NCBI RefSeq assembly: GCF_000769655.1
Contig: NZ_CP008887.1
Span: forward strand, 1,922,001-1,986,000
Source: Thermococcus eurythermalis
GTDB lineage: Archaea > Methanobacteriota_B > Thermococci > Thermococcales > Thermococcaceae
DNA length: 64,000 nucleotides
Direction: 5' to 3'
The notes beneath the pieces are model-generated. The model was not told the DNA's origin. It was given only the letters and a program-made list of their open reading frames with translations, and ran no database searches. Positions 12,895-15,939 of this stretch are shown here, piece by piece; position 1 is the stretch's first letter, and each line of letters opens with the position of its first letter. Both the position numbers and the translations under genes were made by a program.

Positions 12895-15800
12895 ATGGTG
12901 AAGACTGAGGCTAAAAAGAGGCAGGAGAATGGAAGGGGGAACAGCTCTTCCCTCTCAGCGTACTACCAGAAGTTCAAGGCCTATGGACTCCCCCTGATAG
13001 CCCTCCTGCTCGCGTATCTGGGCTTTAAACTGAGGAACGTGACGTCCAACTACAAGACCTTCCTCGACCCCGACACTTTTTTCCACTATGAGATGTACAA
13101 GATAGCCATCAATGAGTGGATTCCCAAGTATTTCGCATACGCCAATCCGCCCACAGGAATTAAGGCCAGCGGCTACCTCGGCCTCTATACCGTACAGGCG
13201 TTCTTTTACAAAGTCGTCTCGGCGTTCGGATACGACCAGCTCGGGGCCTTCAAGCTCTGGCCGCCCTTCGTCGGTGCGATGACAGTCATAGCTGTCTACC
13301 TCCTCGGGAGGAAGCTCCACTCCAACTGGGCCGGCGTATGGGCAGCCGCCTTCATGATGTTCTCCTACGCCAGCTTCAGCAAGACCTACTCCGGCAACAA
13401 CCGTGGAGAAGGGCCGTTCATGATGTTCTTCCTATACGCGGTGCTATTCCTTATGATATACCTCGACGAGAGGGGGTGGAACTGGAAGAAGGTGCTCTCA
13501 GGAGTGCTCTTCCTCGCGACCAGCGTCCTCTACATGGCAGTCTGGACCGGAAGCCAGTTCGGTGTCGGAATACTCCTGCTCTTCGCGGGCCTTACTGTGG
13601 TCGTCTTCTTCACGTTCGGCATGATTCCACAGCTGAAGAAATTCACCCAGGACTTCTTCCCGCTCTACGGACTTTCGCTTGTTCTCGGTATATGGCTCTC
13701 CGGCACCGGGTTTATCGGGATTAAGAGCTTCCTTATCTTCGCTTTCGAGGGCCTTATGGCGCTAAGTGCGCTCGTTGCAGTGATGCTCTACGGTGAGAGG
13801 CTTGGCCTCAACTACTCCGACAAAAAGCACCGCTTTGGGACGGTAGTGGCCATAGCGGTTCTCGGCTTCCTGGCGTTCTACGCGTACTTTGGCAGGGAGC
13901 TCTTCAACTTCCTCGGCGGCGCCACCCAGTCAAACCCGCTCTACCAGACCGTTGCCGAGCTCGCAAGGACTGATTGGGGGACAATAATCAGCTATTATAG
14001 CATTGGAATTCAAAAGGGAATTGTAGTAGGTGCTATAGCACTTTTTGGTTTGGTAATTTTATTAATACAGCTCATAGAACAATTAAAAGAAAACAACTCC
14101 CCCGTGACACAAGGAATATCAGCAGGGATAACACTTGGAGTCATATTAACTTACGTGTATTATTTCAAGGAGTACCCAAACGTAAAGCCTCAAGACGGGC
14201 TGTTATTCTTGATTTCAGTAAGTGGATTTGGCATTGTACTATTGAGACTTACAATACAACTAGCTAAGGGTAAACCAACAGAGAAAGAAATTTTCCTCGT
14301 CAGCTACTACGCCGGCTCTATATACCTGCTCTTCATGGCGGTCAGGTTCGTGTTCCAGGCCTCTGGAGCCATACTCCTCCTGGCTGGCGTCGCGGTTGGA
14401 GAGGCCTTCCTGTTCGTCGAGAACATGAAGGAGAGCCTCGGCACCAAGGCCCTCTACGCGGCGCTCCTCATCCTCCTATTCCTGCCTGTTCCGGTTATAG
14501 GTGCCCAGCACATGAATGATATAGCCAAAAGCTACGCAAGGAGCCAGGGCTCCGTTCCGGCTGACTGGGTGAACACGCTCAGCTGGCTCAGGGAGAACAG
14601 CCACCCGCTCGACAGCGCAACCAGCTGGTGGGACTACGGGTACTGGATTGAATCCAGCCTGCTCAGCCACAGGCGCTCCGCCACCGACGGCGGCCACGCA
14701 TACGACAGGCGCTACATTGTTGCGGACTTCTTCTCGCACTACGGAAACGAGAGCGAGCAGGACTTTGAGGCGTGGGGCCTCAACTACATGATAACCTGGC
14801 AGCAGGACATAGGAAAGTTCAACGCCATAAGCTACCTCGGCGGCGCCATCAACCACTACGAGCAGACGCACATTCCGATGTTCCAGGCCATATCAACACA
14901 GCAGATTCAGTACGCCAACGAAAGCGGCAGGCTTGCCGTTTACATAGCATCAGGAAACAGCGCGTACCAGCCGCTGGCGACCATTGACCTCACCACGGGG
15001 CAGGTAATAGGCGGCAGGGGGGACATACCTTACGTCCTCTACATCTTCGGCAACTACGGACTGCTGGCGTACCAGAAGATAGCCTTCAGCAACTTCGTTC
15101 AGCTGGCTTTCCACGTTCCGTACTCCCCGGACCCCTGGGAGTCCCAGAAGCTGTTCGCCAACTTCAAGCCGGTGTATAGCAACGGCGGCGTTTCGACCTA
15201 CGAGTTCAGGCCGTTCGCAGTTTACAGGATAGACAGGTACGAGAACGACACCTGGAAGACCGTTTACACCACCCTCGGCGGCGGAAAGCTCCAGCCAGGG
15301 GAGCAGAAGCTGAGGCTCTGGATTTCGGCCTTCGGAAGGGACATAAAGGACGCAAAGCTCGTCTTTGAGGCATACAACGGAACCGAGCTCATAAAGAGAG
15401 AGGTTCTCGCAGAGGGCCTCAGCATGGACTACCTGAACGAGACCCCCGTTGAGGTGACCCTCACGATACCCAACGCCACCGGCTACCGCCTCGTCCTCAT
15501 CCAGGAGGGCCCAGTTGGAGTGCTCAACGGGGCACCGAAGGTCAACGGGAAGGTAGCCAACCCGAGCTACATACTCGGCGAGGGCCAGAGCGGCCAGCTT
15601 GAGCTCAAGGCCGCGTTCAGAAAGGACTACGACAGCGTGAAGCTTACCCTCAGGGCGAGCATAGTCTACTACGTTGCCCCCAACGGCAAGGACATAGAGA
15701 AGGACGACTTCTACCTCGAGCCCCACCAGGACATCATAACCTACGTTCCGGTCAAGGAGCTGAGTGTCAAGGAGGGCAACAACACGATAGTCGCTCAGGC

Positions 15801-15939
15801 CAGCATGCCCGAAAACGTCTTCGGCAAGTACATCCAGGAGCTCCACAAGAAGTACGGCAAAGACAAGGTCATCATCGTCGGAAAGAGGATAGAGCCGATT
15901 TTCATCACACAGAAGGAGTATGTAATTTGGGAGGGTTAA
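12895..15939 (+). CDS. aglB: Oligosaccharyl transferase AglB (STT3)
   Basis: Membrane enzyme that transfers the lipid-linked glycan to Asn in N-x-S/T sequons. The 1014-residue protein has an N-terminal half of about 13 membrane helices and an exposed C-terminal half. The catalytic signature SWWDYGYWI is at about residues 578-586. An acidic DxD-type LDPDTFFHYEMY lies in the first external loop. Start at ATG 12895 behind GAGGTGAT. A ~310-nt segment at 13980-14290, within the membrane domain, has markedly AT-rich codons unlike the rest (see findings). It overlaps the convergent next gene by 4 nt. Confidence 0.97.
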   Translation: MVKTEAKKRQENGRGNSSSLSAYYQKFKAYGLPLIALLLAYLGFKLRNVTSNYKTFLDPDTFFHYEMYKIAINEWIPKYFAYANPPTGIKASGYLGLYTVQAFFYKVVSAFGYDQLGAFKLWPPFVGAMTVIAVYLLGRKLHSNWAGVWAAAFMMFSYASFSKTYSGNNRGEGPFMMFFLYAVLFLMIYLDERGWNWKKVLSGVLFLATSVLYMAVWTGSQFGVGILLLFAGLTVVVFFTFGMIPQLKKFTQDFFPLYGLSLVLGIWLSGTGFIGIKSFLIFAFEGLMALSALVAVMLYGERLGLNYSDKKHRFGTVVAIAVLGFLAFYAYFGRELFNFLGGATQSNPLYQTVAELARTDWGTIISYYSIGIQKGIVVGAIALFGLVILLIQLIEQLKENNSPVTQGISAGITLGVILTYVYYFKEYPNVKPQDGLLFLISVSGFGIVLLRLTIQLAKGKPTEKEIFLVSYYAGSIYLLFMAVRFVFQASGAILLLAGVAVGEAFLFVENMKESLGTKALYAALLILLFLPVPVIGAQHMNDIAKSYARSQGSVPADWVNTLSWLRENSHPLDSATSWWDYGYWIESSLLSHRRSATDGGHAYDRRYIVADFFSHYGNESEQDFEAWGLNYMITWQQDIGKFNAISYLGGAINHYEQTHIPMFQAISTQQIQYANESGRLAVYIASGNSAYQPLATIDLTTGQVIGGRGDIPYVLYIFGNYGLLAYQKIAFSNFVQLAFHVPYSPDPWESQKLFANFKPVYSNGGVSTYEFRPFAVYRIDRYENDTWKTVYTTLGGGKLQPGEQKLRLWISAFGRDIKDAKLVFEAYNGTELIKREVLAEGLSMDYLNETPVEVTLTIPNATGYRLVLIQEGPVGVLNGAPKVNGKVANPSYILGEGQSGQLELKAAFRKDYDSVKLTLRASIVYYVAPNGKDIEKDDFYLEPHQDIITYVPVKELSVKEGNNTIVAQASMPENVFGKYIQELHKKYGKDKVIIVGKRIEPIFITQKEYVIWEG

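Follow-up and report, generated by a model that had tools for sequence, protein, structure and literature searches.

A probably foreign, AT-rich tract in the membrane core of Thermococcus AglB and recurrent replacement of the same domain in other Thermococcus species

Introduction

The oligosaccharyltransferase AglB decides which glycan attaches to which surface-protein site. In the AglB of Archaeoglobus fulgidus, a tunnel between transmembrane (TM) helices TM8 and TM9 accommodates the dolichol chain, part of external loop 5 (EL5) becomes ordered upon donor binding, and the TIXE motif located in EL5 contacts the sequon (PMC8342417). In Haloferax, aglB was reported to recombine internally and to be transferred laterally, including one event from outside the lineage (Genes 2018, 9:172; PMC5867893), and a link between this recombination and surface variation, viruses, and mating was proposed (PMC5867893). 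Six to eight TM helices, not four, are predicted between the TIXE motif and the catalytic WWDYG motif in the DPANN AglBs L080-L083, L085, L089, L106, L117, and L118, and the existence of these enzymes, with six or more helices in that half of the membrane domain, indicates that the AglB fold tolerates added helices. In the open-access literature searched, from which most subscription journals are missing, no report of aglB recombination in Thermococcus was found.

Identity of the gene and its product

The window, namely the whole 64-kb stretch of DNA that was analysed, is part of a Thermococcus chromosome of 2,122,535 bp represented by a single contig. On its forward strand, the ORF at 12895..15939 is aglB and encodes the long form of the oligosaccharyltransferase AglB (1014 aa). 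This assignment is based on the ORF itself together with Pfam, solved relatives, and fold: OST_P1, OST_P2, and OST_IS score above the curated Pfam cut-offs in the C-terminal part of the protein (peripheral and insert domains), solved AglB relatives from Pyrococcus and Archaeoglobus were found, and the fold matches that of A. fulgidus AglB (7e9s/3wak). The TIXE motif, as defined in PMC8342417, occurs as TVAE at residues 352–355 in EL5 (13948..13959, forward strand), and the WWDYG catalytic motif is found intact at residues 578–582 (14626..14640, forward strand). Since TVAE and WWDYG are both intact, the sequence suggests that the AglB of the window is a working enzyme.

Composition and edges of the AT-rich tract

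Two-state GC3 segmentation of aglB delimits an AT-rich tract at 13963..14292 of the forward strand (codons 357–466), in which GC3 is 0.31 compared with 0.80 in the rest of the gene and total GC is 36.7% compared with 56.7% outside. At 2-unit support, the start falls at codons 353–367 and the end at codons 465–468, and the log-likelihood gain of the segmentation is 52.8, whereas 12 codon shuffles gave gains of at most 7.6. The original prediction, made from the letters of the window, had placed an AT-rich segment at 13980–14290, within the error of this segmentation, and had described it as encoding membrane helices upstream of WWDYG without a break in frame, as is indeed the case, the ORF being intact and its reading frame uninterrupted across the tract. 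It had described equally sharp switches at both ends; composition and identity do change abruptly at both edges, the right one being sharp, with ATT followed by TTC CTC GTC AGC TAC TAC, and the start at the left being uncertain by about 10 codons. At the right edge, the shift in codon usage coincides with shifts in identity at the amino-acid level and at third codon positions; at the left, all three occur within ~15 codons.

A scan of GC3 and codon use, which had been suggested as a check, bears out this compositional break. In a sample of 73,838 codons, drawn from the 64-kb stretch and from eleven further stretches of 20 kb in this genome, no other run of 104 codons falls so far below the remainder of its own ORF as the tract does. 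Eight TTA or TTG leucine codons are present in the tract and none in the other ~900 codons of aglB, and CAA is likewise confined to the tract, with five occurrences there and none elsewhere in the gene. The GC3 island has a z value of −12.6, whereas none below −5.0 was detected in 33 further ORFs of the same and related genomes for which six or more helices are predicted; the control set of 258 other ORFs concerns compositional islands only, and the rank of aglB is biased by the use of genomes partly picked for islands in aglB. The AT-rich island is real and is no by-product of membrane-helix coding.

Low GC3 is also observed at other sites. Two adjoining long ORFs of the same genome (L144 14493-19425, at about 714–719 kb) have GC3 values of 0.31–0.41 against a genome average of about 0.70, and this pair is a probable foreign island. 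The long ORFs at L143 12177-15926 (1250 aa) and L196 5866-10062 (1399 aa) contain internal low-GC3 stretches (z values of −6.4 and −7.7), which are possibly inteins.

An insertion and a divergent TM10 within the tract

Searches for AglB relatives took in 60 further species genomes of Thermococcus. With the whole protein as query, two matches were obtained per congener, covering residues 1–370 and 430–1014, and their ends abut in the congener. Residues ~370–429 (180 nt) are missing from every aligned Thermococcaceae AglB, and at the residue ~370/430 junction a few relatives (e.g., G002 and G033) carry up to 11 inserted aa. The tract is composed of three parts, namely a few native-like codons at the left, a 60-codon in-frame insertion (14002..14181, forward strand), and 37 codons homologous to TM10 (residues 430–466; 14182..14292, forward strand). 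The insertion had been overlooked in the original prediction. Two TM helices are predicted in it (residues 374–397 and 404–425), for which hydropathy peaks are present and the AF2 model shows low confidence (pLDDT of about 40–50). It is regarded as a putative extra transmembrane hairpin, which would give two helices beyond 13; as this is an even number, the orientation of the catalytic domain would be preserved. On the AF2 model, in its own helix numbering, the tract starts near the end of EL5, just after TIXE, and ends at the start of TM11.

The TM10 region of the tract, although homologous to that of the relatives, is divergent. It is 41–51% identical to the corresponding residues of 23 congeners and 54% identical to those of G052, compared with an expected TM10 identity of 66%, averaged over 160 other pairs of similar C-terminal divergence, and its third-position identity is 0.14–0.30. 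The flanks of AglB are mostly 65–90% identical to those of close relatives. Because the 60-aa insertion is combined with a TM10 that is too divergent, ~105 foreign codons appear to stand in place of ~45 native ones. An AT-rich segment common to orthologues in close relatives, which had been named as the observation that would speak against transfer, is not found: no orthologue shares it.

The 180 nt unique to this aglB could also be explained by the insertion of a small foreign or mobile element into the gene with no homologous sequence replaced. This explanation is improbable because the AT-rich divergent tract extends 37 codons past the insertion through the homologous TM10, and the insertion is in frame, lacks terminal direct or inverted repeats, and matches no element family. 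An internal origin, in which adjacent helices were duplicated in tandem and the copy then diverged rapidly and drifted towards AT, would fit the helix-pair character that the insertion shares with its neighbours. Nevertheless, the insertion scores against the following TM10–TM11 like a shuffled insertion (p = 0.25), the comparison with the rest of the protein gives p = 0.42, and drift cannot yield codons that are missing from the other ~900 codons of aglB, which makes such an origin very improbable. Recombinational replacement in the aglB of the window, in contrast to both, is highly probable.

Search for a donor

No donor of the tract was found by protein searches in 94 Thermococcaceae genomes or 115 genomes of the phylum, by DNA searches in the 94 Thermococcaceae genomes, or in plasmids, phages, and viral contigs, and family searches returned no match of the insertion to any protein family. 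A close donor among the sequenced species representatives is unlikely. The AglB-S paralogue of the same genome was considered as a donor and rejected, as the tract has no match elsewhere in its own genome. Small ORFs in G096, G097, and G103 were likewise set aside as relatives of the tract, their weak matches looking like chance hydrophobic similarity.

Separate searches with the segment and its flanks had been expected to reveal different best relatives; the flanks match congeners, and the segment yields no donor. Replacement by DNA from a lower-GC donor, as originally proposed, is supported by the joint breaks at the edges and by the replacements in other species described below, with the qualification that the incoming DNA is more than a variant of the native segment, adding ~60 residues, and that no donor was found. 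The want of a known donor would also be expected from an assembly artefact in the form of a chimeric join. Such an artefact is very improbable, given that the tract is in frame, the homologous TM10 is correctly placed, the chromosome is one 2.12-Mb contig, and analogous mosaics are present in independent assemblies.

Replacements in the aglB core of other Thermococcus species

Independent replacements recur in the same membrane domain of aglB across several Thermococcus species, and aglB is a candidate recombination hotspot. When the aglB of all relatives was scanned for GC3 islands, strong ones were detected within this membrane core for G005 (z = −15.7), G032 (−11.4), G014 (−8.4), G059/G058 (about −7), G018 (−7.0), and G025 (−6.0). 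G032 and G021 are collinear over ~14 kb with nucleotide identities of 95.8% and 92.9%, and the sole break is a 374-nt non-aligning stretch inside aglB. In 30-codon windows, the nucleotide identity between these two aglB genes falls from 0.99–1.0 to about 0.4 near codon 217, remains at 0.36–0.66 until about codon 470, and then returns to 0.96–0.99. The G032/G005 cassette (codons ~217–470) corresponds to TM6–TM11 and EL5 on the AF2 model, again in its own helix numbering. The core of G032 (216–362) shows 95% amino-acid identity to that of G005, a genome that otherwise has different closest relatives; in both, GC3 is 0.39–0.40 in the core versus 0.74–0.87 in the flanks, and the backbones differ.

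Conflict between trees was demonstrated for the G005/G032 and G025/G035 cores, the tract of the window being too short for a tree. The core tree unites G005 and G032 with support of 100/99 and rejects the grouping of G032 with G021 (AU p = 9e-7); in the N-terminal tree, by contrast, G032 clusters with G002 and G021 (99/95). The core also brings G025 and G035 together, a grouping that is rejected by the N-terminal part (p = 0.023) and by the C-terminal part (p = 0.001). For these two parts, the remaining clade tests give weak results (p = 0.04–0.5, some not significant). The core is conserved in pairs of genomes without exchange, with nucleotide identities of mostly 0.97–1.0 for G026/G028 and G013/G016, and is therefore not simply fast-evolving.

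Two further patches of low identity (0.62–0.79) were observed between the aglB genes of G032 (L194) and G021 (L208), at codons ~53–98 and ~652–710 in the numbering of the window gene. The first is located in external loop 1 and the second close to the C-terminal insert domain of a gene that is otherwise 93–99% identical, and both may be further exchange sites.

Proposed mechanism and function

The best explanation as a whole, which combines a foreign tract, recurrent exchange of the core, and altered glycan handling, is assigned a probability of roughly 0.85. In this explanation, a short tract of a lower-GC aglB-like gene recombined into aglB, ousting about 45 native codons. The incoming tract begins at the end of EL5, just after the TIXE motif, and brings about 60 extra residues that are predicted to form an additional TM hairpin, followed by its own version of TM10 and an in-frame end at the start of TM11. 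This event is one of several independent replacements in TM6–TM11 and EL5, and the domain may thus behave as an exchangeable module. The likeliest benefit could be that the dolichol-linked glycan is handled differently or that acceptor sites are used differently, resulting in altered surface glycosylation, because the exchanged domain holds EL5 along with helices 8 and 9, the elements that serve in A. fulgidus AglB as gate and binding site for the lipid-linked oligosaccharide. By this analogy, a benefit at the gate or for glycosylation is put forward tentatively. It is also conceivable, though somewhat doubtful, that the AglB core of Thermococcus (TM6–TM11 and EL5) is an interspecies cassette and that the allele of this strain encodes a 15-helix enzyme with altered donor or acceptor handling. 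The recurrence at aglB is consistent with selection to vary this surface-glycosylation enzyme.

A serious rival, whose chances are rather short of even, is that the replacement is real but neutral and reflects ordinary Thermococcus recombination in a tolerant AglB core with no selection on glycosylation. AglBs accept diverse glycans, complementation by heterologous aglB works in haloarchaea and in methanogens (cited in PMC5867893), and the extra helices of the DPANN AglBs also speak for such tolerance; however, equally strong islands occur in 0 of 33 other multi-helix ORFs, yet in the aglB of several species. If, according to the preferred explanation of core exchange with altered glycan handling, the gate is repeatedly swapped between species, natural chimeric oligosaccharyltransferases could reveal the determinants of donor specificity. 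Repeated swapping would also point to selection on the surface glycosylation of hyperthermophiles, with viruses or cell–cell recognition as possible drivers.

Comparison with known systems

The AglB of A. fulgidus (7e9s, 3wak; PMC8342417) has its fold and the TIXE and WWDYG motifs in common with the AglB of the window. It possesses 13 TM helices, whereas for the window AglB two additional ones are predicted, located between EL5 and TM10. The DPANN AglBs resemble the window AglB in that one or more helix pairs are added to the corresponding half of the membrane domain. In the alignment, their extra helices are placed after TM10, whereas those of the window AglB lie before it, and nothing in their sequences was seen to resemble the insertion. 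Intragenic recombination of aglB is already known, and the new features here are a tract that probably changes the topology of the enzyme and the recurrent exchange of the donor-gate region. As in Haloferax, recombination has occurred within the gene of the same oligosaccharyltransferase. Unlike the Haloferax case, the Thermococcus tract is compositionally foreign and alters the predicted number of helices, and the exchanges in several species hit the EL5/TM6–TM11 core.
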